Assembly (NCBI GenBank): GCA_030615745.1
Contig: JAUWYR010000039.1
Location: forward strand, 1 to 24,356
Length of the DNA: 24,356 nucleotides
Reading direction: 5' to 3'
Origin: Candidatus Zixiibacteriota bacterium
GTDB taxonomy: Bacteria > Zixibacteria > MSB-5A5 > SM23-73-2
Shown here: positions 3,964-22,808 of the stretch, one piece after another
Numbering within the stretch: position 1 is the stretch's first letter
Layout: every line of letters begins with the position of its first letter
The notes under the pieces: generated by a model
Seen by the model: only the letters and a program-made list of their open reading frames with translations
Databases searched by the model: none
Told to the model about the DNA's origin: nothing
Program-made: the position numbers and the translations under genes

Positions 3964-5472
3964 TTAAAATCTATAGCTTATTGTGAAATGGGAAATGTGA
4001 GCTTCCATCCAATAATCTCCAGGATAATTGTCAAAAATCCCATCTTCGTTCAAATCGCTTAAGTTCTGGACAGTTCGTTTTTTATAACTTTGATATTCAT
4101 AGTTATACCCTATCTCTGTATTCCCGAATTTATATCCTATGCCAAATGTGATGCAACTTTTATCTCCTATATCAGGTAAAATAGGTGAGAGGGTATTATC
4201 AGGGATGGGTGAAGGGTCAAAATAATAACCCCCATAGACTGGTAGATTCTCCAAAGGAAGATATTCGAATCCAAAGCTTATGCGGGTTACATCCTCCCAG
4301 TTAAACAGTATCTCGGACTCTTTAGCAGATTCTAAATTCTCTTTTAATGGAACTAAAGTGTCATTTTCAACTGTAAGTGGATCAACTGAAAATTTTGGAT
4401 TTATTTTCTCAAGCCTTGACCAATTAACCCGATTAACATCGAAGGTGAGAGTAATTTTCTCATTTGGCTTAAAAGCTACTCCTGCTCCTAAATCACCGGG
4501 CAAGGATAAATCAACTTCCTCCTCAAGCTCTGCACGAAGAAGATCACCTAAAAAGAGTACATAAATTCCAGGATATTTTTCATCCAAGCTCAAGCCTAAC
4601 CAGGGATTATAAGGTAAATAAATATCTAAAGTGGAGGTTCCTGACAGATTCAAATCGACCGGACTCCGATAAGAGACCCCCAATTGTAGTTTAGGGCTAA
4701 TTTTATATAAAAGCCCTAAGTTAAATCCAAAGCCCCACCCATCCTCATCTAATTTAGCATCCATAGGAAAGTTCTCATAAGGTCTGTCGATTTGTAATTG
4801 TGGATTTGTTGGAACTAAAATGGTTTTTCTAAAAAGAAAATTTGCAAATTGAACACTTATCCCAAGTCCCGCTGAGAGTCTATCTTTGATTAGCTCCTTG
4901 GCTACACAGGGATGGAAGTCAAAGACGTCCAAGTTGATCTGGTGGTTTGCTTTGGGATAGGGAGTACCTGTTTCGTATCCTGGGGGTGGATGGTATATAT
5001 CCCAGCCATATTTTGCGGTATAGGGAATAAAGAAAGACATCCCGGTGTTAAATCCTCCCCATTTGCCTATTTTGATAAAACCTCCGAAATTTGGTAATCC
5101 AATATTCTTATCATCCGGATACCATTTTATTCCATTTTTGAAGCCCACATCATAACCCTCAAAAGTTATCTCTGGCTGATAAGAGGGTCTGGGGCTGAAA
5201 ATGAAAAGAGAAGCATAAAGCTCAGAATTTTCCATAGTTGCCAATCCAGCTGGATTCCAAAAAGAAGCGCTCCAATCATCAGCCAACCCTCTGAATGCAC
5301 CACCCATCCCCATAGCCTTAAGACCTATACCTGATACCGCAAACCCAGAGCCCCAGGATGAGGTAAAGCTGAAAAGGACAACTAAAATAAAAACAAAAAG
5401 GCTAAAAACTTTTCTCTTGATGTCTCTTGACCTTCGGTCTCTTGATGCATACGCACATACGCATTTCCTCAT
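3964..5472 (-). CDS. FadL/OMPP1-type outer membrane transport protein
   Basis: The mature N terminus (GSGFAVSGIGLKAMGMGGAF, then ADDWSASFWNPAGLA) is the hallmark of the FadL/TodX/OMPP1 family, which import hydrophobic compounds through a 14-strand outer-membrane barrel. The chain ends in HFTISYRF with C-terminal Phe, as barrel proteins do. I chose the ATG at 5472 (GGAG six bases upstream) because a normal signal peptide core (VFSLFVFILVVLF) then follows at a usual distance. A TTG at 5529 with a stronger GGAGG is an alternative and would add 19 residues. Codons 4-20 after the ATG come from a palindromic repeat (5413-5463) that seems to have been inserted into an ordinary MRK-KVFSLF start. The esterase-like lipoprotein follows in the same operon. 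Confidence 0.85.
   Translation of the reverse strand: MRKCVCAYASRDRRSRDIKRKVFSLFVFILVVLFSFTSSWGSGFAVSGIGLKAMGMGGAFRGLADDWSASFWNPAGLATMENSELYASLFIFSPRPSYQPEITFEGYDVGFKNGIKWYPDDKNIGLPNFGGFIKIGKWGGFNTGMSFFIPYTAKYGWDIYHPPPGYETGTPYPKANHQINLDVFDFHPCVAKELIKDRLSAGLGISVQFANFLFRKTILVPTNPQLQIDRPYENFPMDAKLDEDGWGFGFNLGLLYKISPKLQLGVSYRSPVDLNLSGTSTLDIYLPYNPWLGLSLDEKYPGIYVLFLGDLLRAELEEEVDLSLPGDLGAGVAFKPNEKITLTFDVNRVNWSRLEKINPKFSVDPLTVENDTLVPLKENLESAKESEILFNWEDVTRISFGFEYLPLENLPVYGGYYFDPSPIPDNTLSPILPDIGDKSCITFGIGYKFGNTEIGYNYEYQSYKKRTVQNLSDLNEDGIFDNYPGDYWMEAHISHFTISYRF
5413..5463 (-). repeat. In-frame palindromic repeat inside the porin signal peptide
   Basis: This 51-base segment holds three TCTCTTGA units, a GACC-TTC-GGTC mini-hairpin, and CATACGCACATACGCA (plus-strand reading). 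It adds 17 codons, rich in Arg and Ser, between MRK and KVFSLF. Removing it restores a plain signal peptide. Its first 25 bases are identical to the copy in tatD. Confidence 0.75.
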
Positions 5473-5645
5473 AGTCTTCTCCACTTTATTATAGGTTTTC
5501 TTTTTTGATTTGAGTTGAATCTTTAACAAATTTCACCTCCTTGGTCAAAAAATACCCTAATTATTATTTATTTAAGTATGTCATTAAACTCTGCATCTTT
5601 AAAACATTTTTTATCAAAAGTGTTTTGCGCCATAAATTATTCAAA

Positions 5646-5674
5646 ATATTACAATAAAAAAATTTGTTTGTCAA
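5646..5674 (-). promoter_or_regulatory. Probable promoter of the FadL-like/esterase operon
   Basis: On the minus strand TTGACA (5674-5669) and TAATAT (5651-5646) are separated by exactly 17 bases. The leader to the chosen ATG would be about 165 bases and includes a strong GGAGG near 5536-5540. Confidence 0.6.
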
Positions 5675-5762
5675 TATTTTTTTTAAAAAAGCAAAAAAAA
5701 ATTTCAAATGGGCGAAATTAAGCATTGCTTTAACAGAAAGACTTAAAAAGTCAAATTATGTC

Positions 5763-5792
5763 TTGACAATACTCAAAAAAGGATTTTATCTT
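5763..5792 (+). promoter_or_regulatory. Possible promoter of the M16 protease gene
   Basis: A perfect TTGACA (5763-5768) is followed after 18 bases by TATCTT (5787-5792). The predicted start would be about 20 bases before the ATG, so the leader is short but includes the ribosome site AAGGAG at 5807-5812. Confidence 0.45.
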
Positions 5793-5818
5793 TTCTCAAC
5801 AAAAGAAAGGAGAGGAAA

Positions 5819-8419
5819 ATGTATAAAAAGATCAATTTATTATTTTTATTATTTTTAATTTTTTCGTTCTTTTTTACCCCTTTTGTTAGAGCAGACAATA
5901 AGACTTTAACTTTCAATTTATCCAATGGGATGAAGGTGATATTAAAAGAAAACCACGCCAATCCGATGATAGCTTCTTTGATCTATGTTAATGCTGGAAG
6001 CAAATATGAAAAAGATTACAACAATGGTGTGAGTCATCTTTTAGAACACCTTTTATTTGATGGAACAAAAAAAAGAACAAGACAACAGATAACCGATGAG
6101 ATAAAATCCAAAGGTGGCTACATCAATGCATTTACACAAAAAGAACTAACCTGCTATATGGTGCTTTTACCTTCTGAGTTTATCGAATATGGCTTGGATG
6201 TCCAATCGGATATGCTTTTCTGTTCCATCTTTCCAGATTCTGAATTAGCCAAGGAAAGGAAAGTGGTGATAGAGGAAATTAAAAAGGATGAGGATAATAT
6301 CGACTATCAGGTTGAGAAGTTTTTCGACTCCCAAGCTTATAAGGGAACTCCCTATGCCCGTCCGGTACTTGGGTATGAGAATATAATCGCAACTATCTCA
6401 AAAGAACAGATAATAGATTATTATGAGAGTTATTATAAGCCTAATAATATGATTGCTTTGATCATAGGTGATTTTGAATCCGAAAGGATGCTTGAGCTTT
6501 TAGAAAAGTATTTTGGAGAAACTCAACCAAAGCCACTTTTAGAATTTCCCAGAATCGAATTTTTACCCCCTTTGGAAAAAAAGGTCCGATATAAGGAAAA
6601 AGAAACTAAAAACACCTACTTATCTTTATCATTTGATGCTCCACATTTTACTGACCCGGACTTTTTTCCTTTTGATATATTAACTTTCTATTTGAATTCA
6701 AAAGAGATCTCACCCCTTTACAAAGCACTTTTAAAAGGAGAAAATCCTCAAGCTTTAGATTTTTCAATAGATCTGGAATTACAAAAAGAATTTTGTCGTC
6801 TAAACATCCACATAACCACTGATTCGCCTGAAAAAGTAAAAAAGATTTTTAAAACAATAGAGAATTCTTTAGAAGGACTTCCCGAAGATAATCTAACCCA
6901 GGAAGACTTAAACCGGATAGTTGTTTCCAAAAAGACCGGTGAATATTATTTAGAGGAGAAACTCCATCACTATGCAATGTATAAAGCTTCGGTGATTGTT
7001 AATTGTGGAATAGAATTTTTAGATTCTTATCTTGACCAGCTCGAACTGGTTACGCCAAAATCCATAAAAAGGGTTGTGGAGAAACATTTTTCAAACCCTG
7101 TTTATATTGCCACAGTTGTGGTTCCGAAAAAGGATGAAAAAGAAAAAAGGGAAGAAAAATCTTTTAGCCATTATCATAAAGAGATTTTAGATAATGGCTT
7201 GACTGTCATAATAAAGGAAAATCCTGATTCAAAGGTTTTAGGGATAAATATATTAGGGGAAAATCGTTCTGCTTTTGAACCGGAAGGGAAAACAGGTATT
7301 GCTGACCTTTTAAACAGAGTCCTTTTAAAAGGAACAAAAAAAAGACCTGCTGAAAAAATCATAGAGGATAAAGAAAAAATAGGTGCGGAGATAACATTAG
7401 TTGATAATCCTTACATTCCTTATGATGACCTTTACACCACCCCTCTTTTTAGCTTCATAAAATTCCAGACAATCGATGAATTTGCAGAGAGTGGATTTGA
7501 GCTTCTGTCTGATATAATCCAAAATCCTGTTTTTTCTGAACAGGAGATAGAGAATTCAAAAAAGGAGATGATCGGTCTTATAAAAAGAGGGGAAGGAAGC
7601 CCTTATAAAAGTGCAAGAAGACTTTTTTATTCGAAGCTCTTCAAAGACCATCCCTATGGTAAAAGCATAATGGGTGATCCCACAACACTTGCGTCTATAA
7701 AAAGAGATGATCTGGTTGAATTTCATCAAAAATTTTACTCGCCAGAAAATATCATCATGACAATTGCCACAAACATAAAAACAGAAGAGATGATAAAGCT
7801 GGTTAAAAAATATTTCGGGGATATGCCAAAAGTAGGCTTTACTTCTTTTGAGGTACCTGTTCCATCAAAAATTACAGCACCTATCAAAGCCAAAAAAGAG
7901 ATGCAAAAAGAACAGATTTATATCTATTTAGGCGGGCTTCTTCCAGGAATAAATCATCCTGATGCACCGGCGCTTAAGGTGATGAACTCGATTTTATCCT
8001 CAAGATTGGGACAAAGCTTAAGAGAAAAAAAGGGACTGGCTTATTCAGTGGGGTCAAATGTTTCTTTCGATAAGGACTTCGGCTGGTATATTGCCTCCAT
8101 AGGGACCAGACCCCAAAACTATGATGAGGCTCTGGGTGGAATCCTAAAAGAAATGAACCAGATTAAAATCACTTTGGTCTCGAAACAGGAATTAGAAAAA
8201 GCTCAAAACGCTATCTGGGGCAGTTTGCTTTTCTACCGCCTTTCTAGGATAAACCAGGCATTCTGGATGGGGGTGAATGAATTTAAGGGTGCAGGATATG
8301 ATTACGATGATAACTATATCGATATTATCACAACTGCAACCAGAGAGGATGTTAAAAGGGTTGCTGAAAAATATCTCGATACAAAAAATTATCTCTTAGC
8401 AGTGGTTGGTAAAATATAA
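5819..8419 (+). CDS. Exported M16 (pitrilysin/insulinase) zinc protease, two tandem halves
   Basis: This 866-residue protein has an N-terminal signal peptide (core LLFLLFLIFSFFF, ending near VRA). The first M16 unit (~28-450) has the inverted zinc motif HLLEH at residues 73-77 and a downstream Glu in ERKVVIEEI near 152-153, the third ligand. The second unit (~460-866) aligns in outline (NGLTVIIKEN, LLNRVLLKGTKKR) but has LLNRVL where HxxEH should be, so it is the non-catalytic partner. It keeps the family's substrate-binding segment LREKKGLAYSVG. This is the usual arrangement of fused periplasmic M16 proteins, which clamp and cleave unfolded peptides. GGAG precedes the ATG. It is followed by the DUF6249-like gene. 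Confidence 0.93.
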   Translation: MYKKINLLFLLFLIFSFFFTPFVRADNKTLTFNLSNGMKVILKENHANPMIASLIYVNAGSKYEKDYNNGVSHLLEHLLFDGTKKRTRQQITDEIKSKGGYINAFTQKELTCYMVLLPSEFIEYGLDVQSDMLFCSIFPDSELAKERKVVIEEIKKDEDNIDYQVEKFFDSQAYKGTPYARPVLGYENIIATISKEQIIDYYESYYKPNNMIALIIGDFESERMLELLEKYFGETQPKPLLEFPRIEFLPPLEKKVRYKEKETKNTYLSLSFDAPHFTDPDFFPFDILTFYLNSKEISPLYKALLKGENPQALDFSIDLELQKEFCRLNIHITTDSPEKVKKIFKTIENSLEGLPEDNLTQEDLNRIVVSKKTGEYYLEEKLHHYAMYKASVIVNCGIEFLDSYLDQLELVTPKSIKRVVEKHFSNPVYIATVVVPKKDEKEKREEKSFSHYHKEILDNGLTVIIKENPDSKVLGINILGENRSAFEPEGKTGIADLLNRVLLKGTKKRPAEKIIEDKEKIGAEITLVDNPYIPYDDLYTTPLFSFIKFQTIDEFAESGFELLSDIIQNPVFSEQEIENSKKEMIGLIKRGEGSPYKSARRLFYSKLFKDHPYGKSIMGDPTTLASIKRDDLVEFHQKFYSPENIIMTIATNIKTEEMIKLVKKYFGDMPKVGFTSFEVPVPSKITAPIKAKKEMQKEQIYIYLGGLLPGINHPDAPALKVMNSILSSRLGQSLREKKGLAYSVGSNVSFDKDFGWYIASIGTRPQNYDEALGGILKEMNQIKITLVSKQELEKAQNAIWGSLLFYRLSRINQAFWMGVNEFKGAGYDYDDNYIDIITTATREDVKRVAEKYLDTKNYLLAVVGKI

Positions 8420-8490
8420 AATTTAGGAAACTATTTAATTCCACCATCGTAAGTTTTTATGAAAATTTGAGGAAAAAAAGGAGGTGGAAT

Positions 8491-8874
8491 TTGCTCGAAA
8501 ATATCGATGTAACCGGGATAATAATCGCAGTGACTGCTCTGGCAATTGGCGCTGCCATAGCCATCGTGGCAATAATCACAGGATATGGTGGTAGAAAAAT
8601 GGACCATGAGGCAAGGATGAAAGCGATCGAAAAGGGCACAAACGTTCCTATAATTACCGAAAAAACTCGAACACCCTATCAAACCTTCAAAGCCGCTTTA
8701 GTCTGGGCAGCTGTGGGATTGGGAATTTTTATATCTTTTGTCTTTTTCGCAAAAGAACCAGATGCTGCGTTCTTAGGAATCATCCCGTTTCTTGTCGGAG
8801 TAGCTCTTTTAATCTCCTGGATGGTGGAGAGAAAAGGTCTTAAGGAAAAAGAGGAGAAAAAGACTTCGGTTTAA
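8491..8874 (+). CDS. Small DUF6249-like membrane protein
   Basis: From the TTG at 8491 the product has 127 residues. I chose this start because GGAGG (8480-8484) sits six bases upstream; an in-frame TTG at 8467 lacks such a site. Three hydrophobic segments are visible: ~8-30 (IIIAVTALAIGAAIAIVAII), ~67-84, and ~91-108. Between the first two is the cytoplasmic-looking stretch MDHEARMKAIEKGTNVP, which resembles DUF6249 proteins. The tail is Lys/Glu-rich. The function of this family is not known. It may share a transcript with the M16 protease 71 bases upstream; the terminator at 8988-9018 follows. Confidence 0.7.
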   Translation: MLENIDVTGIIIAVTALAIGAAIAIVAIITGYGGRKMDHEARMKAIEKGTNVPIITEKTRTPYQTFKAALVWAAVGLGIFISFVFFAKEPDAAFLGIIPFLVGVALLISWMVERKGLKEKEEKKTSV

Positions 8875-8987
8875 ATGAAATTCAGCAATTCCTGGTTGCA
8901 ATCATAAAAATTGTAATCCTTCAAAAAAGCCACAGGCAAAAATTCTATTCGTGTCCTTTCGTGATAAAGGATGCTTTATTACTTGTT

Positions 8988-9018
8988 GGTTCAGGGCGCA
9001 TCACCCTGAACCTTTTTT
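8988..9018 (+). terminator. Rho-independent terminator after the M16/DUF6249 genes
   Basis: GGTTCAGGG and CCCTGAACC form a nine-pair stem around a seven-base loop, followed directly by six Ts on the plus strand. Confidence 0.8.
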
Positions 9019-9058
9019 CGGGTAGGGTCTCCAGAAAAAAACAGGAGCAATCAAATAG

Positions 9059-9766
9059 TCAAAACCTCGTTGTTAGACCAAAAACTAAATGTCTTGTCCT
9101 TCCTTTCATCTCAGCATGACCATAAGCTATCTTGGCATCTTTTACTTCAACATAGGTATATTTGTATTCTAATAAAAGACAAACTCCTTTCCAAAAATCT
9201 ATTTCACTCCCCAAGGCTAATTGATAAGCTGGAAAATGTATCTCATATTGTTCTCTTTTAATATTGTCAATAACGCTCTCAGTATGTGGAATTAAAGGTC
9301 CAAGACCCAAACGACCGCAAACTTTTACCTTATCGAATCGATATCTCCCCACTAAGTTGAGAAATAAAAAGTTAAAACCATGGGTCATTGAAAATCCTTG
9401 AACTATATCTCCGAGCCTGATAGCAGAGTCAATCGGTTCATCCTTTCTTATTCCAGAAACAAAAACCATCTGAGATGCATTGGAGTGTATTTTAGCATGG
9501 ATAAACTCTGCTTCTAAACCGAAATTGGGATAAGAATTAAAAAAATAAGCTCCCCTGATACCATAATATAGAGGTGTTGAGAACGATTTATCTTTGAACT
9601 CTATATCCTGGAAAAGAAGGTCATTTTTTCTTGAAGGTTGAACAATCTTTAAGTCACTTTTTGAAGTGGAAGCTTTTCCAAGAAATATTCCAACCTCCCA
9701 TTCAGCTTTAAGATTTGGGCATATTATAAAAAAGGTTACAGAGAATAATAAGAATTCCTTTCTCAT
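9059..9766 (-). CDS. Outer-membrane beta-barrel protein, 235 residues
   Basis: The product starts with a signal peptide (MRKEFLLFSVTFFIICPNLKA) followed directly by EWEVGIFLGKAS. It continues in alternating polar/aromatic stretches and ends in HLVFGLTTRF with C-terminal Phe, as outer-membrane barrels require for BAM recognition. Size and the AEWEVGIFLG / GIRGAYFFNS / LGLGPLIPH segments resemble small 8-10-strand OmpW/OmpX-like or opacity-type barrels. I cannot assign a transported substrate. No strong ribosome site precedes the ATG. It stands alone between the convergent M16 operon and the pdxJ operon. Confidence 0.7.
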   Translation of the reverse strand: MRKEFLLFSVTFFIICPNLKAEWEVGIFLGKASTSKSDLKIVQPSRKNDLLFQDIEFKDKSFSTPLYYGIRGAYFFNSYPNFGLEAEFIHAKIHSNASQMVFVSGIRKDEPIDSAIRLGDIVQGFSMTHGFNFLFLNLVGRYRFDKVKVCGRLGLGPLIPHTESVIDNIKREQYEIHFPAYQLALGSEIDFWKGVCLLLEYKYTYVEVKDAKIAYGHAEMKGRTRHLVFGLTTRF

Positions 9767-9879
9767 TCAATTTTTTAAAGCTAAACAACTCAAATCTTTT
9801 TCCAAAAAACTTAACTTGATGGTTCAGAGTGCCCCTTTCCTGAACTTGTTTCTCAAGGTGGAATATCCTGAAAAAAAGA

Positions 9880-9907
9880 GTAAAGCTGAAGCTTTACACT
9901 CCAGAAC
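9880..9907 (-). repeat. Dispersed CTGGAGTGT palindrome
   Basis: On the minus strand CTGGAGTGT is followed by AAAGCTTCAGCTTTAC, a small inverted repeat. A close relative in the other orientation lies at 13782-13807 and a composite one at 17841-17894. Confidence 0.65.
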
Positions 9908-9952
9908 TTTTATATGTTAGTCCGACTTAGGGTAGGACATAACTGATATATT

Positions 9953-10672
9953 TTAGACTTTCTTTAAAAGCTCAAGCATCTCTTTCACCGCTTTTTCGAA
10001 CCCGACTAAAACAGCCCTGGCAACAATAGCATGACCGATAGATACCTCTTCTATCTGCTCAATTGTTGTGATTCCTGTGATGTTTTGATAATTCAGTCCA
10101 TGCCCCGCATTCACCCCTAAACCAAAATCTCTGGCAAGCTTTGCCATCTTCCTTAAATTTTCCAACTCAGAGAATCTTTTTTTCTCTTCTTCTGCCTCAG
10201 CGTATGAGTCAGTGTTCAGCTCCACAAAATCTGTTTTGAGCTCAGATGATTTTTTCACTGAATCCGAATCAGGGTTGATAAACAAACTTATTTTGATTTT
10301 TTCTTCCCTCAACTTGGTTATAGTATCTGAAAGAAGGTCGAAATTTTTAAAAACATCCAATCCGCCTTCAGTTGTTATTTCCTCGGGTTTTTCCGGAACC
10401 AAGGTAACCAAATTCGGTTTATACTTTTTTGCTAAGGATACCATCTGTTGGTTTGCTGCCATCTCCAGGTTCAGGGGTTTTTTAATAAATTTTTTTAAAA
10501 GCTCTAAATCATTCTCCTTGATATGTCTTCTATCCCCTCTGAGATGAACTGTGATCCCATCTGCTCCAGCTATTATAGCCATCTGGGCAGCCTCTTTTGG
10601 ATCAGGATATAATGCCAATCTTGCCTCCCTTAGGGTTGCAACATGGTCAACATTTACACTTAATCTTATCAT
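9953..10672 (-). CDS. pdxJ: Pyridoxine 5'-phosphate synthase PdxJ
   Basis: This 239-residue TIM-barrel enzyme joins 1-deoxy-xylulose 5-phosphate with 3-amino-2-oxopropyl phosphate to make pyridoxine 5'-phosphate, the last ring-forming step of the DXP-dependent vitamin B6 route. The family signatures are clear: RLSVNVDHVATLREAR at the start, GADGITVHLRGDRRHI, NLEMA, TLVPEKPEE, VELNTD and GVNAGHGLNYQN. I chose the ATG at 10672, four bases after GGAGG, over a GTG one codon earlier that would be too close. It is the last gene of a tight minus-strand run, 12 bases after a lipoprotein gene, with no functional link apparent between the two. Confidence 0.96.
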   Translation of the reverse strand: MIRLSVNVDHVATLREARLALYPDPKEAAQMAIIAGADGITVHLRGDRRHIKENDLELLKKFIKKPLNLEMAANQQMVSLAKKYKPNLVTLVPEKPEEITTEGGLDVFKNFDLLSDTITKLREEKIKISLFINPDSDSVKKSSELKTDFVELNTDSYAEAEEEKKRFSELENLRKMAKLARDFGLGVNAGHGLNYQNITGITTIEQIEEVSIGHAIVARAVLVGFEKAVKEMLELLKKV

Positions 10673-10684
10673 CACTCCTCCAAA

Positions 10685-11245
10685 TCATAAAGATCTATCA
10701 TACCACCTGACAATCCTCCACCACCCATCCTCAGATTTTCTGAACATAAACTTGGCAAATCCGGTTGCCTCGAGATGCTCAAAGTTATAATCGCCATCAG
10801 TATCCCTCAAAGAGAGATGGAAGCTCACGTTTCTCACCTCCCATTTTTCTCCTGTTACTGTATCAATCTCTACGCTATCAGCTCGCACAATCCAGGTGTC
10901 GAGGCGAATATCGTCAAATACCCGGAACAACCTGTTAGTTCGATAAATATCTCCACCCTTTCCCTCCCTTGGGACCTGAACCCAGACCTCCCCGGTCTGA
11001 GGTAGCTGGTCCTGGTCTTTGTAATAGAAGATAAAATCGTAATCAAGGCAGTTCTCATATACGATGGAGTCACGATATTCATAGGCATATTTGAAATTAT
11101 GCAGAACTGAATCCGGTGAGGCTTGTTGAACTATGGGCTTAAAAGTCCCAGGACCTAACAAAGGTGGGGCAAATGGATTTTCACAGCTATAGAGAATAAA
11201 AAGAAAGAAAACAAAAGCAGTTAAAATTAAACACTTTTTTTTCAT
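10685..11245 (-). CDS. Lipoprotein of unknown function (paralogue of the next gene upstream)
   Basis: The 186-residue precursor has a hydrophobic leader ending in the lipobox LYSC, then ENPFAPP. I see no catalytic motif. Two stretches match the neighbour at 11248-11865 closely in pattern: SVLHNFKYAYEYRD with an adjoining aromatic strand, and the C-terminal ATGFAKFMFRKSEDGWWRI. The size and these features suggest an NTF2/SnoaL-like fold, which is only inference. It starts two bases after the stop of its paralogue, so translation is probably coupled. Confidence 0.75.
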   Translation of the reverse strand: MKKKCLILTAFVFFLFILYSCENPFAPPLLGPGTFKPIVQQASPDSVLHNFKYAYEYRDSIVYENCLDYDFIFYYKDQDQLPQTGEVWVQVPREGKGGDIYRTNRLFRVFDDIRLDTWIVRADSVEIDTVTGEKWEVRNVSFHLSLRDTDGDYNFEHLEATGFAKFMFRKSEDGWWRIVRWYDRSL

Positions 11246-11247
11246 AA

Positions 11248-11865
11248 CTAATACCTGTATTCTGCCTTGAAATCAGCCCAGTTATATCCACCTGAACTTT
11301 TAGGGCGATCCTCCCAGAAATAGATAGACCACCAGTTCAAACCGGTCTCCTTTAGATGAAAAGTTGAAGTCCCTGTAGCTTCAATCGTATCCTGTTTGGG
11401 CTTAAATCTCCAGATGGATAATTTATAATCAATAAATAGAACCTCTGTGGAATCAGTTTGCTCACCTTTGGAAATAGTCTCGAAATTTAGATATAAAGAG
11501 AAATCGATTGAGTCCGGGTATTGTTTGAATATATTAAAAATATTAGCGGTAACTCTTTTTTCCGTGTTCTGGTTCCAATCTGCAAAAAGGTAGTCCTGAT
11601 TAATGTTAGCCGCTTCAATAGAATCCTCAGGCGCAGAAAATACAAAGGTATCGGAAAGGCACAGATTAAAATTTTCTATTATCTTCTCGTTATATGAGTG
11701 CATTAAATTTTCTAAGACTATCTCAGGCTTTGAGGGAGTGCTCCAGGTCCCTACCTGGCCTTTTGGTGGAGGAGACTTTCTTGTTTTGAAAGGATTTTTA
11801 CATCCTGAAAGGATAATTAAAATAAATAGAATCGAAAAAATCTGTAAGTTTCTTCCCTTAAGCAT
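11248..11865 (-). CDS. Lipoprotein of unknown function (tandem paralogue)
   Basis: This 205-residue precursor has the lipobox LSGC followed by KNPF, echoing the CENPF of its neighbour. Shared landmarks are IVLENLMHSYNEK near residue 50 and ATGTSTFHLKETGLNWWSI near the end. The pair therefore looks like a tandem duplication that has diverged strongly. It begins three bases after the stop of the large barrel gene and ends two bases before the next lipoprotein gene. Both may serve that barrel at the cell surface, but this rests on position only. Confidence 0.75.
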   Translation of the reverse strand: MLKGRNLQIFSILFILIILSGCKNPFKTRKSPPPKGQVGTWSTPSKPEIVLENLMHSYNEKIIENFNLCLSDTFVFSAPEDSIEAANINQDYLFADWNQNTEKRVTANIFNIFKQYPDSIDFSLYLNFETISKGEQTDSTEVLFIDYKLSIWRFKPKQDTIEATGTSTFHLKETGLNWWSIYFWEDRPKSSGGYNWADFKAEYRY

Positions 11866-11868
11866 TTT

Positions 11869-13683
11869 CTAAAACATATACTCCAAACTTAAAGATAAAA
11901 AGTCCGCCTCATCTTTTTTTGAATTTTTAGCCTGCTGAAACCTGTGAGTCCAAGAAATTGATATATAGTTTTTTTCTTTAAAAAGATAATTCAAAGAAAT
12001 TGAAAACATATTTCTATAAAACCAATAATCTAACTCTTTTTTAATCTGAGTAAGGTCCCACTCATTTTTTCTCTCATAGGTATACCCTGGAGAAAAAGTT
12101 ATATAGTTTATAAACTTATATATTAGCCCAAAATTAACCCTGTGGGTTTTCCTCTCCCAGGATTTTCTTTGAGTCCATTGATTCCTCCAAAAAAGCTGAC
12201 CATAGTCCTCATATCTGTATACGTAGGCAAATTCAAAGTCTGTCCTTTTGCTAAAAGAGTAGTTTATTTGAGTTGTGGACGAAGCTCTACGCAAGATCTT
12301 GTTTTTTGGCGAATAGGTGTCTGTCTCATAGTCGTAGGTTATGTAATTAGCCTGAATAGAATAGGTTTGGGACAGTTTTGTTTTTTTGTTGGGTCTGAAA
12401 GTTAAAATAGGGGAGAGAATATAGGTCTCATTATAATTGTTGTTAGCTGAAAGCTTTTCTGAGATATAAATTTGATGAAAATTTTTAAACCCCAATCTAA
12501 CCCTTAAATCAAAAGATGGATTGAAAAGATGGAGATACTCTGTATGCCCGAACTTTGTCAGAATATCACGGTCGCTGAAATTAGCAGACCCCTTAGGTGT
12601 GAAAAAAGAGATAACACCAAAAGAGCCAGAAAGATATAACGAATCAGAACTGGTTAACTTCATCTTCAGCTCAAAATTTATCTCACCTGATTCCATCTTT
12701 TGATTTTTATTTATATCTCCATAATCCTCACAGCCCTTCTGGTATTCATACATAGTTTGCAAAAAGAATCTTTTTAAAAATTCTTTTCCAAAATTAAAAT
12801 AAAGATTATGAAAACTTAATATATTATCCTCTATTCTGAAAGGGTCAAAAATTGCGTCTTTTTCCTGGGTATAATGATATTGGCTTTTGGAGAAATCATA
12901 TCCTACTCCTATCTGAAACCCTAAAAAGATTTTTTTGGAAGAGGCGATCTTTAAAATACTCTCAGACCTTTTCTGGGTATTGACCCTTTCCGAAGTATAG
13001 CCTTGATAATATTTGCTCTTTGACCATCCTTTTTCAAAATAGAATCTTAAACTATCAGAAGAACTTAGAACTTTCTCATATTCCAAAATCATTCTTCTTT
13101 TCACCTTAGGAATATTTTTGAATTCATCTGTTTTTTGATCAAAATTAAAAGAAAAAACAGAGCCAAAAAACTCAGGTGTAAAAGAGAGGGTAAAAAGATG
13201 ATTGTATCCCTCATCCGGTCTTCTTTTTCCACCAAACTTTCTCTGAATCCCTTTGAATCCTAAGGATTGAGATAATTTCATTTTAGAAAAAATCTTATAA
13301 TCCGCAAAAACTCCAAATTTTTGCATATATACATCTCTTCCCTCAAGGGAGCTTCCATCATAGGATAAAAAGGCGCCCCAGGATAATCTTCTACTTGATT
13401 TATAAGTCAGTCTCAAATCGACCCCACCATTCTCCTGCCACCTTTTTTTATATGAGCCTTCTTTTGAGCTTTTTATCAGGACAGAGTTAGCCTTGCTTTT
13501 TAATTCCAGCTTTGTTTTGGGGTTAAAAATTTTTGTATATTTAAATCTCTCCTGCCAGGTATAGGTGAGATTGTCCTGGAAAAAATAGAGCTTAAGCTGT
13601 GCTGCCTGTCCATTGGGGACAACTGAGATCATAAAGAAGATTAAACCCCAGACAAATATAGTAAAAATTTTCCTCATAGGCAT
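11869..13683 (-). CDS. Large probable outer-membrane beta-barrel protein, unidentified
   Basis: From the ATG at 13683 the product is about 604 residues: MPMRKIFTIFVWGLIFF starts a signal peptide ending near QAA, then QLKLYFFQDNLTYTWQ. The open frame extends upstream to 13794, but those codons cover dispersed hairpins, so I exclude them; a GGGGG nine bases before 13683 may serve as the ribosome site. The body is an unbroken series of amphipathic, aromatic-rich strands with short charged turns. It ends in LSLSLEYMF, the C-terminal Phe of a barrel. I do not recognise the family. Two lipoprotein genes and pdxJ follow with gaps of 2-12 bases. Confidence 0.7.
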   Translation of the reverse strand: MPMRKIFTIFVWGLIFFMISVVPNGQAAQLKLYFFQDNLTYTWQERFKYTKIFNPKTKLELKSKANSVLIKSSKEGSYKKRWQENGGVDLRLTYKSSRRLSWGAFLSYDGSSLEGRDVYMQKFGVFADYKIFSKMKLSQSLGFKGIQRKFGGKRRPDEGYNHLFTLSFTPEFFGSVFSFNFDQKTDEFKNIPKVKRRMILEYEKVLSSSDSLRFYFEKGWSKSKYYQGYTSERVNTQKRSESILKIASSKKIFLGFQIGVGYDFSKSQYHYTQEKDAIFDPFRIEDNILSFHNLYFNFGKEFLKRFFLQTMYEYQKGCEDYGDINKNQKMESGEINFELKMKLTSSDSLYLSGSFGVISFFTPKGSANFSDRDILTKFGHTEYLHLFNPSFDLRVRLGFKNFHQIYISEKLSANNNYNETYILSPILTFRPNKKTKLSQTYSIQANYITYDYETDTYSPKNKILRRASSTTQINYSFSKRTDFEFAYVYRYEDYGQLFWRNQWTQRKSWERKTHRVNFGLIYKFINYITFSPGYTYERKNEWDLTQIKKELDYWFYRNMFSISLNYLFKEKNYISISWTHRFQQAKNSKKDEADFLSLSLEYMF

Positions 13684-13781
13684 TTCAGCAAACCCCCATA
13701 GGAGAGCCTTTATGGCTCTCATTCTGTTCATCGGAGGGATAAACCCTCCGCTACGCGGAAAATCATTTTGATAAATCGCAT

Positions 13782-13807
13782 ACTGGAGTGTCAAGCTTTA
13801 GCTTGAC
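13782..13807 (+). repeat. Dispersed CTGGAGTGT palindrome
   Basis: CTGGAGTGT runs into TCAAGCTTTAGCTTGA, an inverted repeat. It is the same family as 9880-9907 and lies in a spacer packed with hairpins (13684-13880), including GAGAGCC/GGCTCTC near 13712 and GGAGGG/CCCTCC near 13735. Confidence 0.65.
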
Positions 13808-13818
13808 TTTTATTTTCT

Positions 13819-13879
13819 GGTAGCCGCCCATATGGGCGTAAATTGTTATCTTCGTCCCGCTTTTAGCGGGACGCCTACC
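13819..13879. repeat. GTAG...CTAC double-hairpin element
   Basis: GGTAG opens and CCTACC closes an element that holds two stem-loops: CGCCC/GGGCG and GTCCCGC/GCGGGAC, joined by about 15 bases. It begins one base after the rsmA stop codon (minus strand). Sister elements lie at 18010-18061 and 22809-22868. Confidence 0.75.
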
Positions 13880-13880
13880 A

Positions 13881-14699
13881 TCATTTCAATATTTCGGACA
13901 GACTCTTTGGAAAATTCCTTTTTACTCCCAACTCCGCAAATTCTTTTAAACTCAAAGATTCAGCTCTTCTTTTCGGATCTATTTTTGCCTTTTGTAAGGC
14001 AGAAAGAACAACAGATTTTTCCAATCCTAAATTCAAAGATAAAGAATTCAATATAGTCTTCCTTCGCTGGGCAAAGGAGGCTTTGACTATTTTAAAGAAA
14101 AACTCCTCATCTTCTAATTCAACCTTCGGCTTTTTCAAAAAAACTATCTTTATAACTTTTGAGAAAACCTTTGGAGCGGGGAAAAAAGAGGTCGGTTTTA
14201 ACCTGTATAACATCTTCACATCCGAATAAAGTTGAACTGCCAAAGACAAAGATGACCAATCCTTTGAGCCCGGCTCAGCACAGATTCTTTGTGCTACTTC
14301 TTTTTGAACCATAAGAACACATAGCTCAATTAACTCTTTTTTCCCCAAAAGTAAAGATAAAACCGGGCTGGTGATCTTATAGGGAAGATTTCCAACGATC
14401 TTTATTTTATCATCTTTTGAGCCGAATTTATCCAGATCGATTTTTAAAAAATCCTTGTTTATAATAATTAAATTTTTGTTCTCTTTAAATTTATCCTTAA
14501 GGTATTCGCATAGATTTTTGTCGATCTCAACACCAATTACCCTTTTTGATAATTTAACAAGATGTCTGGTCAAAGCACCTTTTCCAGGTCCGATCTCCAG
14601 AACCTTTTCATCTTTTTTTAAATCCAAAGCATCAACAATCCTTTTTGCCGCATAATCATTTATCAAAAAGTGCTGGGACAAACTCTTTTTAGGCTTCAT
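13881..14699 (-). CDS. rsmA: 16S rRNA dimethyladenosine transferase RsmA (KsgA)
   Basis: This 272-residue SAM-dependent enzyme dimethylates the two adjacent adenines in the 3' terminal helix of 16S rRNA, a late step of small-subunit assembly. Visible family motifs are KKSLSQHFLIN at the start, the SAM loop VLEIGPGKGALTRHL, GVEID, and the catalytic NLPYKITSPVL. The C-terminal part (SFAQRRKTILNSL) is the usual helical domain. A ribosome-like AGGTGAT precedes the ATG. tatD lies 55 bases upstream, a common pairing, and a double-hairpin element abuts the stop codon. Confidence 0.95.
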   Translation of the reverse strand: MKPKKSLSQHFLINDYAAKRIVDALDLKKDEKVLEIGPGKGALTRHLVKLSKRVIGVEIDKNLCEYLKDKFKENKNLIIINKDFLKIDLDKFGSKDDKIKIVGNLPYKITSPVLSLLLGKKELIELCVLMVQKEVAQRICAEPGSKDWSSLSLAVQLYSDVKMLYRLKPTSFFPAPKVFSKVIKIVFLKKPKVELEDEEFFFKIVKASFAQRRKTILNSLSLNLGLEKSVVLSALQKAKIDPKRRAESLSLKEFAELGVKRNFPKSLSEILK

Positions 14700-14733
14700 C
14701 CTATCACCTAAAATTTAGCAAACATCTTAATTC

Positions 14734-14768
14734 TTCCCTATCACCTACCACCTATTACCTATTACCTA
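14734..14768 (-). repeat. Five tandem heptamers TAGGTAA-type
   Basis: On the minus strand the array reads TAGGTAA, TAGGTAA, TAGGTGG, TAGGTGA, TAGGGAA without a break. It overlaps the tatD stop codon, supplying its last codons, and a sixth partial unit (TAGGTGATAGG) lies just before the rsmA start. Confidence 0.85.
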
Positions 14769-15558
14769 ACCCGAACAAATTGAACGCATTTTTCTCAGTG
14801 ATTTCTTCTACTTCTTGGAAACTTGAATCAGAAAAAATCTCTGAGAGTTTTTCTACTACAAATCTTACATAGGATGGTTTGTTCCTTTTTCCCCTGAAAG
14901 GGGCTGGTGAAAGATAAGGGCAGTCTGTTTCTGTTAAGATAAAATCTATTGGGGTATTTTTTGCAATATCTTTTGCTTTTGATTTAGGGTAGGTCAAAGT
15001 TCCGTTGAAGGATAGATAAAATCCTAAAGAAAGACCAAAATTTGCTTGCTTTTGGTTACCTGAGAAGCAGTGCAAAACCCCGCCAATTTTTTGCACATCG
15101 TTTTTTTTCAGAATGTTTAAAGCATCATCATATGCATTTCTTATCTCTTGATGTCTCTTGACCTTCGGCATACGCATATGCACAACAATCGGGAGATTAA
15201 GCTTTTTTGCAAGATCTATTTGCTTTTCAAAAGCTTCTATCTGAATTTTTTTAGGAGATAGATTCCTGTAAAAATCCAGCCCGATCTCCCCTATTGCAAC
15301 GACTTTTTCGTTTTGAGCTAAAATCTCAAGATTTTTTAAAACACCATCATCCAGAGTTTTTGCATCGTGAGGATGAACCCCAACAGTGGCGTAAACAAAG
15401 GGATACTTTTTGGCAAGCTCCAGAGATTTTCTGCTGGACTTCAAATCCACCCCTATATTTATAATCCTTTTCACCCCGGAAGCTTTCGCCTCAAAAATTA
15501 TCTTTTCCCTGTCAGGGTCAAACTGGGAAAAATCCAAGTGTGCGTGAGTGTCGATCAT
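14755..15558 (-). CDS. tatD: TatD-family metal-dependent hydrolase with an in-frame repeat insertion
   Basis: This 267-residue TIM-barrel protein belongs to the TatD/YcfH DNase family. Metal ligands are visible: THAHLDF (His5, His7), GEIGLDF (Glu91), PIVVH (His127), HCFSG (His163) and ETDCPYL (Asp212). PAPFRGKRNKP is also typical. In this family His127 is followed as H-x-R-[DN]-A; here HMR is separated from RNAYDDAL by 11 extra residues (129-139) that come from the palindromic repeat at 15142-15174. Without them the protein is 256 residues, the family norm. A TATAAT-like box at 15585-15580 (minus) may drive the tatD-rsmA run. Whether the insertion permits activity is unknown. Confidence 0.93.
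   Translation of the reverse strand: MIDTHAHLDFSQFDPDREKIIFEAKASGVKRIINIGVDLKSSRKSLELAKKYPFVYATVGVHPHDAKTLDDGVLKNLEILAQNEKVVAIGEIGLDFYRNLSPKKIQIEAFEKQIDLAKKLNLPIVVHMRMPKVKRHQEIRNAYDDALNILKKNDVQKIGGVLHCFSGNQKQANFGLSLGFYLSFNGTLTYPKSKAKDIAKNTPIDFILTETDCPYLSPAPFRGKRNKPSYVRFVVEKLSEIFSDSSFQEVEEITEKNAFNLFGLGNR
15142..15174 (-). repeat. In-frame palindromic repeat inside tatD
   Basis: The 33-base insertion contains TCTCTTGATG, TCTCTTGA, CCTTCGG and CATACGCAT (plus-strand reading); exact ends are ambiguous by a few bases. Twenty-five bases match the porin copy exactly. It adds 11 codons and keeps the frame. Confidence 0.8.
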
Positions 15559-15700
15559 GGGGAAAATTTAGGGATATAGATTATATTCATATTTAGACAT
15601 TAAGTATTAGCGACATTGCAACAGAAGAAGCAATTTCATGAGAGGGAAGTGAGATAGACTATTACATATATGCCTTGTTAAAGGAGCTGTTAGTTGACTA

Positions 15701-16285
15701 TCACAATACTTCTCCATAATCTACCTCAATTCCATCGTCAATCTTTCTATAATAGATAATTTTGATGTCTATATGCTCTGGTAATGCAGCTTTAGCCTCA
15801 TAGGTGTAGGGCTTTATAGACACTGGAACATCCCCTATATATCCATCAATTCCTTTTGACTCTTCATCCTGCTCAGATAAGCGGTAATTAGTTCCTTTTT
15901 TCTCAGCGCCTTTCTTTAGTATTGCTTCCTGAAACCTCAATCCCATAAAGGTTTTCACAATCACTAAATCTCTTACCCATTGCTCAACTACGGTTTGGTC
16001 AATTTTATCTATTGCGTTCTTTAAATTTTTCAACATTTGCAGTATCTTTTCTGTTGCGTTTCTGATCGCATCAGGTTTTTGTTCCAAATACCATCTTTCC
16101 CATTCAGATAAGGACTTCCCTGTGAATTGTTGAATAAGCTCGCTCATTTGACCAACAACTTTTGGTCGTGTCCCTTGTGCGTATTGATTTGCTAAATTGA
16201 CCAATGGAGCCACATACTTGGGAAACTCAGGCGTTTCTATGTCCAAATATCTCCGGATTTCTTCATTGCTGATTTTCACTTTCAT
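15701..16285 (-). CDS. Type II restriction endonuclease, MjaI family
   Basis: This ~194-residue protein matches what I recall of the MjaI restriction endonuclease family: ETPEFPKYVAPLVNLANQ, GTRPKVVGQMSELI, and the probable nuclease core EESKGIDGYIGDVPVSIKP, a PD-(D/E)xK-like arrangement with Asp, a following hydrophobic strand and Lys. MjaI itself cuts CTAG; the specificity here is inferred from the family only. I chose the ATG at 16285; a TTG at 16297 overlapping the methyltransferase stop (TTGA) is possible. The cognate methyltransferase gene lies directly upstream on the same strand. If that gene is truly broken, an active endonuclease would be dangerous to the cell. Confidence 0.75.
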   Translation of the reverse strand: MKVKISNEEIRRYLDIETPEFPKYVAPLVNLANQYAQGTRPKVVGQMSELIQQFTGKSLSEWERWYLEQKPDAIRNATEKILQMLKNLKNAIDKIDQTVVEQWVRDLVIVKTFMGLRFQEAILKKGAEKKGTNYRLSEQDEESKGIDGYIGDVPVSIKPYTYEAKAALPEHIDIKIIYYRKIDDGIEVDYGEVL

Positions 16286-16293
16286 CTTATATC

Positions 16294-17625
16294 TCAATCA
16301 ACTATTTGTTTTTGTAAACTTAAAAACTTTGACTTATATTTGTAATCAAATGCACTGTCCACGTCAACCAAACCATTTTTAACCAAATGGGCGTTTAAAA
16401 AGGTCTTGTTCCGCAAATAAAGATAGCAAAGTAGGTTGTTTTTCTCATCATATTTTATATTGTCAAACCTCAGAAATACTTTTTGACCACGGGTTTTTTC
16501 TCTTAAAAATTGAATAGCCTCTCCGTTTTTCTCTGGTAGCTCTTTTACTCCTAATAATCTAATTTTTAAACCATTATTTAAGACTAATATTTCAGGGTTA
16601 ATTATCTCTTTCACAGTATAGTATGTTTCCCTCTCGGAATGAGAATTGTCTATCTTTGAACCAAATCTCAATTTTTTTTGGTCAACTTTTTTATCAAACT
16701 TTATCGGATCTTTGAAAATATATGGCAATTTTTTAATCTCTTCTTTAAAGTCTATTTTGGCATCTTTTTGTTTGATTATCTCAAAATCCGAAGGACTCTT
16801 CGAGTCTCTTGATCGATACCGACTTGCATCTTGAAAAATAGTGTTTTGTTTTAATCCTAATTTTTCCTTTATAACTGGCAAAAATTTTTCTGATATTTCA
16901 TACCCAATAGAGTTTCTTTTTAGGTTTTTAGCTGCCAGAGATGTTGTTCCACTTCCTAAGAAAGGATCAAGAATAGTATCACCAACAAAACTAAACATCT
17001 TGATAAGTCGCCTTGGTAATTCCTCGGGAAACATTGCTAAATGCTTATCCTGTTTTTCACCGGGAAAATTCCAGTGCCCTGTAAAATATTGATTCTATTC
17101 TTTCTGGGTTAATTTTGACTGCTCTTTAATTTTTCTACTCACCTTTGGAGGATTTCCATATTTCTTAAAGATTAAAATGAACTCATAATCTAATTTAAGA
17201 ATCCCACTTCTTGGATAAGGGAAAGAACCCATAACTGTTGCACCGCCAGTAGTATGACAAGTAGTGACCTTTTGCCAGATAATGGCACCCATATAATCAA
17301 ACCTCACACTTTCACAAAACTTGATTATCTCTGTTCTTATTGGGATAATCTTATATCTTCCATAATAGACAGAACGAGCGAACTGGTCGCCAATGTTAAT
17401 ACATAAACGACAACCCTTATGTAAGACCCTGTGGCATTCATTCCAGACTGAGTTGAGATTGTTGATATACTCTTCATAAGTATCATTGAAACCTATCTGC
17501 TTTCCACCTCCATAGTCTTTTAGTTGCCAATAAGGTGGGGAAGTAATGATAAGATGAACGGATTCACTTGAGATTTCTCTCATCCATCTTGAATCACCGA
17601 TAATTATTTTATGTTTTGTTTTCAT
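16294..17625 (-). pseudogene. Beta-class DNA methyltransferase with in-frame TAG and C-terminal SNase-like domain
   Basis: Two fragments in the same frame make one 443-codon gene. The N-terminal part (~1-176) has the catalytic TSPPYWQ near residue 29 and IGFNDTYEEY; the C-terminal part has the SAM motif DPFLGSGTTS near 220. Catalytic before SAM motif is beta-class order, as in N4-cytosine enzymes such as M.MjaI. Codon 177 is TAG (17097-17095), within GAA-TAG-AAT-CAA-TAT-TTT; homologues have Trp here (EWNQYF-TGHWNFPGE), so a single TGG-to-TAG change explains it. Residues ~334-443 resemble a staphylococcal nuclease fold (IRLLGVKELPEKNGEA, FLNAHLVKNGLVDV), but the second catalytic Arg is not seen. 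Residues ~268-279 come from the palindromic repeat. It could be a pseudogene, a read-through gene, or a sequencing error. Confidence 0.8.
16788..16826 (-). repeat. Diverged palindromic repeat inside the methyltransferase gene
   Basis: The segment contains GACTC-TTC-GAGTC followed by TCTTGATCGATACC (plus-strand reading), parallel to GACC-TTC-GGTC then TCTTGATGCATACG in the porin copy. It encodes SRYRSRDSKSP, very like SRDRRSRD in the porin. Boundaries are uncertain. Confidence 0.55.
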
Positions 17626-17840
17626 CTTATACACTTTAAAGGATTTGGGTTATTGAAAGCCTCGATTTTGCTTAACTTGTTCATATTCGAACTCGGTTCG
17701 ACTTCTTTTTATGTCCTCCAATTCTCGAAATATCCCCTATAATAAACTCCAATTTTTTTCAAGATAAACAGAAAAAAATAAAAATCAATATTTTTTATTA
17801 TTTGGTAACCCCCGCACTTTGCGGAATCCCTACAAATCTT

Positions 17841-17894
17841 CTGGAGTGTAGAGCCCCCCGCAAAAGGCGGGGGATCTACGACTTTAGCTTTACT
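17841..17894 (+). repeat. Composite repeat: GTAG hairpin nested in a CTGGAGTGT palindrome
   Basis: CTGGAGTGT is followed by GTAGA-GCCCCCCGC-AAAA-GGCGGGGGA-TCTAC and then ACTTTAGCTTTAC. The outer parts match the elements at 9880-9907 and 13782-13807, while the inner GTAG...CTAC hairpin interrupts them, so one element seems to have entered another. Confidence 0.6.
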
Positions 17895-17934
17895 AAAAAG
17901 ACTTATTTTGACAAACCGAAAGGTTTATCGTCAA

Positions 17935-17978
17935 TCTCTTGAACCATACGGAGATGTCATCAAGACTCTTCGAACTTC
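17935..17978. repeat. Non-coding copy of the TCTTGA/CATACG repeat family
   Basis: Here TCTCTTGAACCATACGGAGATG is followed by TCATCAAGACTCTTCGAACTTCGCATAC. All the modules of the coding copies are present in scrambled or diverged form. Confidence 0.5.
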
Positions 17979-18009
17979 GCATACTCCAATGTTAAATTCT
18001 AAAAAGCTT

Positions 18010-18061
18010 GTAGGCACGAATTTATTCGTGCATTCTTTGCACAGATGAAATCTGTGCCTAC
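18010..18061. repeat. GTAG...CTAC double-hairpin element
   Basis: GTAGG and CCTAC enclose two hairpins, CACGAAT/ATTCGTG and CACAGAT/ATCTGTG, joined by CATTCTTTG. On the minus strand its first bases, GTAGG, supply the TAG stop codon of the toroid gene at 18058-18060. Confidence 0.8.
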
Positions 18062-19044
18062 AATTTCAATCTCCCCGCTGTTTTCAACACATACAAAGCA
18101 TCCACTGTTACGAATTCGTTCATATGTCTCTTACTGGTCCCGCCCCAATCAACAAGTGAGCGCCCGGTAGCTTTCTTTTCTGTAACTCGATAATACTTCT
18201 TTTCCGCAGGAAACCCACCGTCGGGCAGGCGCTTCGATTCCAAAAGGTCCAGAGCATCACAGCAGCGTTTATCAGAGATAAAACCTGCCTCTGCCATGAC
18301 CTTTAAACCGAAAAGCATATCATAATGCCAAAAACAAGGATAATGAAATCTTACAAAGTCATCCGATATGATTTTCCCATCTTTTTGCCTCTTGAACATT
18401 TTTCGCTTGAGGAAAATCTCCGATGCTTTTTCTGCAGTTTTTTTTGCTTCCCTGTTACCGGTTAGCTTTCCATAAAGGGCTAATGCACGAAGTGGAATAA
18501 GGCTTTCATGAAATGACGAATTTATCGCTTTGGGGTTTTTGTCACAATTCCACCCACCATCGGGCCACTGCCATTTTATAAGACGACGTGCAAGCTCATC
18601 AGTTCGGGAATCTGCCAAGCCGAGAGTAAGTAGATAGTAAAGCGCATTCCCCTCCTGTGAAGCACATCTTCTCACCCTGCCCTCGATCAATCTTATGCTC
18701 TTTTCATGCTTTTTTGAGAAAAGCCACTGGTAAACCTGCGCCCTTAATGGAATGAGTGATTCATCACCTGGGGGATAACCGATCTCTTGATGCATACGCA
18801 TATCCGCAAGACATGCCAGAACCCAGTGACCACCATACCATTTGGCATAGGGATGAAGTGGTATTTTACCATCCTCCCCTCTTTCAGAAAGAAGCAATTT
18901 TACTCTCTGAGACGATTTTATCTTCTGTTGAAGTTTTTTAATCTCAATCGATTCTTTTTCTTTGCATAAAACATTCACCAAAACTTTGAATCTTACAGAT
19001 GGCTCATCTGATTTGAGTAGCCTGTCAATTATACTGTCCATCAT
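18058..19044 (-). CDS. Alpha/alpha-toroid (prenyltransferase/squalene-cyclase-like) protein of unknown function
   Basis: The 328-residue product has the repeated toroid signature: WQWPDGGWNCDKNPKAINSSFHESLIPLRAL near the middle and RLPDGGFPAEKKYYR near the end, each a Gly-rich turn between helices, as in squalene cyclase/prenyltransferase repeats. No DxDD-type catalytic motif is evident, so no reaction can be assigned. I chose the ATG at 19044, five bases after AGGAG, over the ATG at 19059. Residues near 85 read LADMRMHQEIGYPPGDES; removing an 18-base repeat (18784-18801) gives the smooth LADIGYPPGDES. The stop codon lies inside a double-hairpin element. An IS remnant lies directly upstream. 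Confidence 0.75.
   Translation of the reverse strand: MMDSIIDRLLKSDEPSVRFKVLVNVLCKEKESIEIKKLQQKIKSSQRVKLLLSERGEDGKIPLHPYAKWYGGHWVLACLADMRMHQEIGYPPGDESLIPLRAQVYQWLFSKKHEKSIRLIEGRVRRCASQEGNALYYLLTLGLADSRTDELARRLIKWQWPDGGWNCDKNPKAINSSFHESLIPLRALALYGKLTGNREAKKTAEKASEIFLKRKMFKRQKDGKIISDDFVRFHYPCFWHYDMLFGLKVMAEAGFISDKRCCDALDLLESKRLPDGGFPAEKKYYRVTEKKATGRSLVDWGGTSKRHMNEFVTVDALYVLKTAGRLKL
18784..18801 (-). repeat. Short in-frame copy of the palindromic repeat inside the toroid gene
   Basis: The 18 bases read ATGCGTATGCATCAAGAG on the minus strand, lying between the GAT and ATC codons of LAD-IGYPP. The same TCTCTTGATGCATACGCA string (plus) occurs in the porin copy. Confidence 0.7.
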
Positions 19045-19062
19045 CTCATCTCCTGTCATATA

Positions 19063-20551: not shown

Positions 20552-20610
20552 TTTACATCCTCTTTATTAGTATTCACTTTCTTTTAACATCACAAAATCT
20601 CAAGGATTAA

Positions 20611-20725
20611 CTAACAATACTGATTTTACTGTTGGTGTGAACACCAACAGAGAACAAGAGGAATTTTCCAGTTAGCTAACAATACTGACTTTTCTTTTTT
20701 GTGTAAAACACAACAGAGAACAAAG
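20611..20725. repeat. Two ~48-base direct repeats, each with an internal inverted repeat
   Basis: Copies at 20611-20657 and 20676-20724 share CTAACAATACTGA at the left and ACAGAGAACAA at the right. Each has a different central palindrome: GTTGGTGT/ACACCAAC in the first and TTGTGT/ACACAA in the second. The stems vary while the flanks are conserved. Confidence 0.7.
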
Positions 20726-20726
20726 G

Positions 20727-22534: not shown

Positions 22535-22808
22535 CTTGTATTTATTTGCGTAGTATCAAGAGATACGAAAATCCCGAAATTTTTTTGGATTTTCATCTCT
22601 TAAAATCTTTACTGATTAACTCCAATGGTTTCTTTATAATTGTCGGACAATAACTACATAACTTTGAATTTAAGCCTTATTATCAATTGCTCAAAGCTTT
22701 TAAATACTTAGACTTTAACCTGTTGTGAAAGAAAACTAAACATATCCGAAGAATTCATAGAAAAAACTTTTTAAAGATAGTGCCTTTCCAACAAAATAAA
22801 CCTACTAC

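Follow-up and report, generated by a model that had tools for sequence, protein, structure and literature searches.

How does one and the same family of short palindromic sequences come to lie in frame in unrelated protein genes, and what put it there? The question is raised by a stretch of 24,356 nucleotides (the window) from the draft genome of a Candidatus Zixiibacteriota bacterium (2.28 Mb in 74 contigs, 98.6% complete), for which a preliminary description had proposed in-frame insertions in four genes. We followed these sequences through 1.36 Mb (about 59%) of the genome, the part on which all by-frame counts rest, and through 0.89 Mb of Zixibacteria SM23_73_2, the only congener compared, which is about 77% identical in alignable DNA.

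Units and their copies in the window

Each unit is 15 or 18 nt long and begins with the 8-nt core TCTCTTGA, behind which comes a mini-hairpin. The hairpin of the 18-nt unit has 3-bp arms and a 4-nt loop and that of the 15-nt unit 2-bp arms and a 3-nt loop, examples after TCTCTTGA being TGC-ATAC-GCA, TCG-ATAC-CGA and CC-TTC-GG. The arm pairs vary yet match (TGC/GCA, TCG/CGA, TCC/GGA, CGC/GCG, TAC/GTA and others); seven different pairs occur and the arms are fully paired in 85 of the 97 units with an NTNC loop. The loop itself is constrained to (N)TNC in nearly all units, which would place it in the stable d(GNA)/d(GNAB) class. Unusual stability of the hairpin as a whole was rejected, the value under a standard DNA energy model being about -1.5 kcal/mol and not beyond that of shuffled sequences. 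Units are also combined into larger structures. The 33-mer is an 18-mer interrupted after TCTCTTGATG by a 15-mer, and the 51-mer is a 33-mer with a further 18-mer at the split point (Table 1). A 33-mer counterpart is present for all four common 18-mer loop variants, and units occur in tandem as well. Only three 17-nt copies were found, none of them well inside a gene.

Table 1. Unit copies in the window (positions are those of the whole stretch)
Copy	Position	Strand	Location	5' flank
51-nt compound TCTCTTGATG[TCTCTTGACCTTCGG][TCTCTTGATGCATACGCA]CATACGCA	5413..5463	+	FadL-like porin gene (3964-5529, - strand)	CTTT
33-nt nested copy TCTCTTGATG[TCTCTTGACCTTCGG]CATACGCA	15144..15176	+	tatD homologue (14755-15558, - strand)	CTTA
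18-nt TCG-subtype unit TCTCTTGATCGATACCGA	16805..16822	+	DNA methyltransferase reading frame (16294-17034, - strand)	CGAG
Diverged TCC-type copy TCTCTTGAACCATACGGA	17935..17952	+	intergenic, within longer intergenic repeat	
18-nt unit TCTCTTGATGCATACGCA	18783..18800	+	toroid-repeat protein gene (18058-19059, - strand)	CCGA
Diverged 17-nt copy TCTCTTGATACTACGCA	22547..22563	-	intergenic	CGTA, consistent with the target rule (by reading)

All four genes named in the preliminary description carry a unit, at the places and in the sizes (51, 33 and 18 nt) that it gave, and the 25-base core said to be shared by the copies at 5413 and 15144 is an exact match. Its inventory nevertheless needs amending, in that the methyltransferase copy is of another subtype (TCG-ATAC-CGA), the 33- and 51-mers are compounds of units lying within units, and the two diverged intergenic copies had been missed. 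A C stands at position -4 of all four in-gene copies. In the porin gene the 51-mer lies in frame directly behind Met-Arg-Lys, the likely start codon being the ATG of MRK, and exactly these 51 nt, or 17 residues, are absent from the congener. The 33-mer in tatD adds 11 residues right behind the His of the VVH motif (predicted junction peptide ..HMRMPKVKRHQEIR..), and the unit in the toroid-protein gene adds six (..AD[MRMHQE]IGYPP..). One in-frame stop (17095-17097), upstream of the unit, splits the methyltransferase frame (16294-17634) into two parts that share one frame, and this host may therefore be a pseudogene.

Several other features of the window were recorded. Its intergenic regions contain mosaics of small hairpins (13680-13880, 17810-18060, 20607-20750 and 21168-21191), among them REP-like GTAG..CTAC hairpins and two copies of CGGGGTAAGGTACCCCGCCATAAC. 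The open reading frame at 21192-21878, in which what looks like the beginning of a DNA methyltransferase runs on into the C-terminal portion of an 8-amino-7-oxononanoate synthase-like protein, is possibly a gene broken by insertion. Upstream of groES-groEL, the sequence TTAGCACTC-N9-GAGTGCTAA at 201-227 is like a CIRCE heat-shock operator. An Rfam search of the window returned two tRNAs only.

Distribution, insertion sites and host genes

The window copies are not a product of chance, since matches across the genome far exceed those of reversed controls: the 18-mer pattern TCTCTTGATGNNTACGCA with up to three mismatches has 145 matches against 10 for its reversed control, and TCTCTTGACCTTCGG with up to two mismatches has 51 against 3. 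The exact 18-mer TCTCTTGATGCATACGCA occurs 42 times. Within the phylum the family is limited to this genus and its expansion to one species. A tighter pattern matches 82 times in this genome and twice in the congener, while TCTCTTGATNNATACNNA is found 75 times here, four times in the congener and not at all or once in each of 130 other genomes of the phylum. The density of TCTCTTGA is 191/Mb in the first 1.11 Mb read of this genome as against 46/Mb in the congener, with little difference between the two for related control words; the few congener copies are in tandem and stand behind CATA at both sites read. A scan for the exact 18-mer in 84,980 species genomes gave four single matches, one of them the congener, and no Rickettsia record. 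A viral source was rejected, as viral contigs gave one chance-like match and none for the 25-mer.

Alignment to the congener reveals an exact empty site with both borders unambiguous (CCTC/TCTCTTGATGCATACGCA/CAGTG against CCTC/CAATG), and 13 of the 27 host proteins whose alignment spans the site have a gap that equals the insert in length exactly. When the joined flanks were searched for in both genomes, 24-nt junction matches appeared only with a net length change of zero, one of them within an intergenic hairpin of REP-like form (gtaggcacgaa^tttattcgtgc). At the empty sites, whether in the congener or elsewhere in the genome, there is no sign of a duplicated target. What is inserted is thus exactly one unit, in either orientation, 3' of a degenerate Y-N-W-A. 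Position -4 is C in 71 of 106 copies (P = 1e-26) and G in none of the 106 (P = 2e-10), A is the commonest base at -1, and the rule is alike for coding and non-coding copies. On the 3' side, TGC-type units favour A at +2 and T at +3. The unit ends on the same base as is found at -1 (A for the TGC and TCG types, G for the CC type), and the 3' ends of the 18-mers (CGCA, CCGA) themselves match the target rule, which accounts for the tandem copies; the nested 15-nt unit, behind GATG, is an exception to the C at -4. The core is carried by the C-rich strand, as judged by contig skew, in 70 of 113 units, but a replication-strand bias was rejected because this is close to the 3:2 expected from open frames and non-coding copies have no clear bias.

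The genome also harbours another such family, with a 15-nt insert, CCCTGGCCGGGCAGG, and 60 copies of its 12-nt core in 1.36 Mb (for example, outside the window, at L112:19868 and L111:2238). These copies are almost all intergenic, often within other hairpins, and none was found in the 0.89 Mb of the congener. For about 13 of them an exact 24-nt empty site turns up at another place in the genome, and in essence this holds for an insert length of 15 nt alone. The exact insertion of ultra-short hairpins thus seems to be characteristic of this genome.

For copies inside genes, the unit was deleted before the junction was checked for a long open frame, so that circularity was avoided. On this test 76 of 127 junctions (60%) lie in a long open frame, compared with 81% of random positions, and most in-gene copies leave the host gene unbroken. 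A stop is created in only one of 59 well-supported cases against 14.7 expected from random orientation and phase, and none of 100,000 simulated runs gave a value as low. In-gene lengths are multiples of three. With 36 antisense and 22 sense insertions, five of the six frames are in use, namely all three antisense phases and two sense phases, whereas the avoided third sense phase reads TC TCT TGA and so contains a stop. The peptides encoded in the five frames are unrelated (SLDAYA, LLMHTQ, CVCIKR, AYASRD and RMHQE). Hosts named by eye include priA (three copies), smc, mutS2, a relA/spoT homologue, dxs, purH, gatB, murG, obgE and lptF/G-like and mltG-like genes; structure-database searches back the names TatD, GatB, PriA and Dxs. 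The preliminary description held that deletion of an insert restores the family sequence, and this is borne out not only by the congener alignments but also by more distant proteins: solved TatD homologues have an 11-residue gap, and GatB homologues a 6-residue gap (predicted junction peptide ..ETGLLMHTQKK..), at exactly the insert, so the extra residues are not shared with unrelated lineages.

Insertions lie at poorly conserved protein positions (mean percentile 0.25, P = 1e-4, n = 24), with TatD, where the conserved histidine directly precedes the insert, as an apparent exception. Because they occupy such sites, in both orientations and five frames, and because about 40% of copies fall outside long ORFs, the units are a tolerated invasive DNA element and not a peptide donor, and the suggestion that they donate peptides is not supported. 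Given the exact empty sites in the congener, the avoidance of stops and the low conservation of the targets, they also provide a clean natural record of protein positions that tolerate 5-17 extra residues.

Mobilisation and alternative origins

A mechanistic puzzle follows, which is what agent inserts exactly 18 nt after Y-N-W-A without duplicating the target. We consider it probable that the units form a family of mobile elements acting at the level of DNA and tolerated in genes. As the data show, units insert exactly, in either orientation and without target-site duplication, behind Y-N-W-A, and purifying selection purges those insertions that add a stop or strike conserved positions. Since the units are multiples of three and a stop is present in only one of the six frames of the 18-mer, in-gene insertions mostly add 5, 6, 11 or 17 residues. 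The logic of insertion resembles that of HUH single-strand transposition, and as mobiliser we tentatively propose a trans-acting, sequence-specific HUH-type enzyme, which would act on hairpin-forming, probably single-stranded DNA with a short target and no duplication. An equally tentative proposal is that these sequences are a class of bacterial mobile DNA smaller than any so far recognised, in which mini-hairpins of 15-18 nt, moved by a dedicated single-stranded DNA recombinase specific for Y-N-W-A, would have colonised essential genes and rebuilt protein loops, the 15-nt family being a second, independent case in the same genome.

Clustering of loop variants within 10 kb is not what a freely transposing element predicts. 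The same variant is found in 21 of 32 pairs within that distance against 12.1 expected (P = 0.002), and because neighbouring copies share loop variants in this way, template switching stays a rival. A stalled nascent strand with a C..A-like end would copy a nearby unit and then return, the end CGCA being similar to the target, with no dedicated enzyme involved. The lack of target duplication, the identity of the last base with the base at -1 and the growth by tandem and nested copies are all consistent with such a process. However, C at -4 and A at -1 make a spaced target rule, free in the middle and uniform genome-wide, which is unlike microhomology without gaps. Units also have the same exact boundaries at many sites, and a single species shows the expansion. 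On balance we regard template switching as unlikely.

We regard as quite unlikely that the units are REP-type elements moved by REP-associated tyrosine transposases that the genome itself encodes. The genome does encode three intact HUH/Y1 proteins, from single-copy, RAYT-like Y1_Tnp genes on C17, C25 and C65 (L215, L216 and L217), and it contains REP-like hairpins; stems of 5 bp can suffice for TnpA-REP, which can cut at CT or CA (PMC8266576). The congener, moreover, offers nothing close to the C25 gene (41% identity). Yet the units carry neither a GTAG nor a CGTC tag, and the transposase genes keep company with other hairpins, as is seen at the two with the clearest flanks: the C17 gene is flanked by GTAG-tagged inverted REP hairpins of another sequence, and the C25 gene lies between grpE and dnaK amid unrelated hairpins. 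No unit was found within about 5 kb of any of the three genes, and no autonomous copy was seen around them, which speaks against linkage of the units to these transposases. Y1_Tnp genes are present in 18 of 20 related genomes searched, and unit-free relatives have equally many of them. Another potential agent, a reverse transcriptase, was sought as a PF00078 (RVT_1) match, and none was found in the 98.6% complete genome although controls were positive, making an origin from a retro-element or diversity-generating retroelement unlikely.

Two further explanations start from the protein or its message. Adaptive peptide tags, spread through selection on the protein, might account for the many translation-compatible copies in housekeeping genes, but are highly improbable when five frames give unrelated peptides, when so many copies lie outside long ORFs and when the insertions fall in some of the most weakly conserved stretches of the proteins. 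It is barely conceivable that the insert is removed from the mRNA or skipped by the ribosome, in an intron- or bypass-like manner as the TatD copy adjoining a conserved histidine might suggest, since a removed insert would need neither stop avoidance nor lengths in multiples of three.

Comparison with known systems

The preliminary description likened the units to the Rickettsia palindromic elements (RPEs), dispersed palindromic repeats of about 150 bp that lie both outside genes and, in frame, within unrelated genes whose reading frames remain open, and whose mobilising enzyme is not established (PMC10969869). The parallel is apt, in that both are short palindromic families whose copies sit in frame in protein genes with no relation to one another, and also in non-coding DNA. 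Unlike RPEs, however, which are about 100-150 bp with a long palindrome, the units measure 15 or 18 nt with arms of 2-3 bp, and their compounds reach at most 51 nt. The five frames in use, the nesting and the Y-N-W-A target rule set them further apart, as do the zixibacterial host and the apparently different core sequence (Rickettsia is absent from the exact 18-mer matches).

REPs are elements of 20-40 bp with stems of 5-13 bp, a GTAG or CGTC tag and high copy number, and intragenic examples, some in frame, are known from Opitutus terrae, Thauera and R. conorii RPE-4/-6 (PMC3733652). The units are like them in being short hairpins in many copies, with alternative complementary stems and loops and some in-frame occurrences in genes. 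Unlike REPs, which are mainly extragenic and have stems of at least 5 bp, they have 2-3 bp arms and lie in long ORFs in 60% of cases, and the terminal GTAG or CGTC is absent from all unit types. The description of the family as new stands for the family itself, but not for in-frame intragenic palindromic repeats in general, which are known in Rickettsia and among REPs (PMC10969869, PMC3733652). Because the defining features of size and tag fail, we file the units under neither heading.

Elements of the IS200/IS605 type insert one strand 3' of a short target without target duplication. The units are like the non-autonomous members of this group in both the lack of duplication and the short conserved 5' target. 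They are unlike them in having one mini-hairpin per unit, at the 3' end, instead of subterminal hairpins at both ends with guide sequences that are shared with an autonomous copy, in having no linked transposase and in showing a 3'-flank preference too. The hairpin recognition and short cleavage sites of IS200/IS605 and of the TnpA-REP strand-transfer systems (PMC8266576) are a further parallel.

A comparison can also be made with the mitochondrial ultra-short elements (MUSEs) of Podospora and the double-hairpin elements of Allomyces, which are described as very small invasive elements (PMC7272585, PMC7218506). The units are likewise ultra-short, invasive and repeated, whereas MUSEs inhabit fungal mitochondria. 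To our knowledge MUSEs do not occur as in-frame insertions across a bacterial proteome. Set beside all of these systems, the units extend in-frame palindromic insertion beyond Rickettsia and a handful of genomes with REPs into an uncultured phylum, and they are several-fold to an order of magnitude shorter than earlier in-frame palindromic elements.
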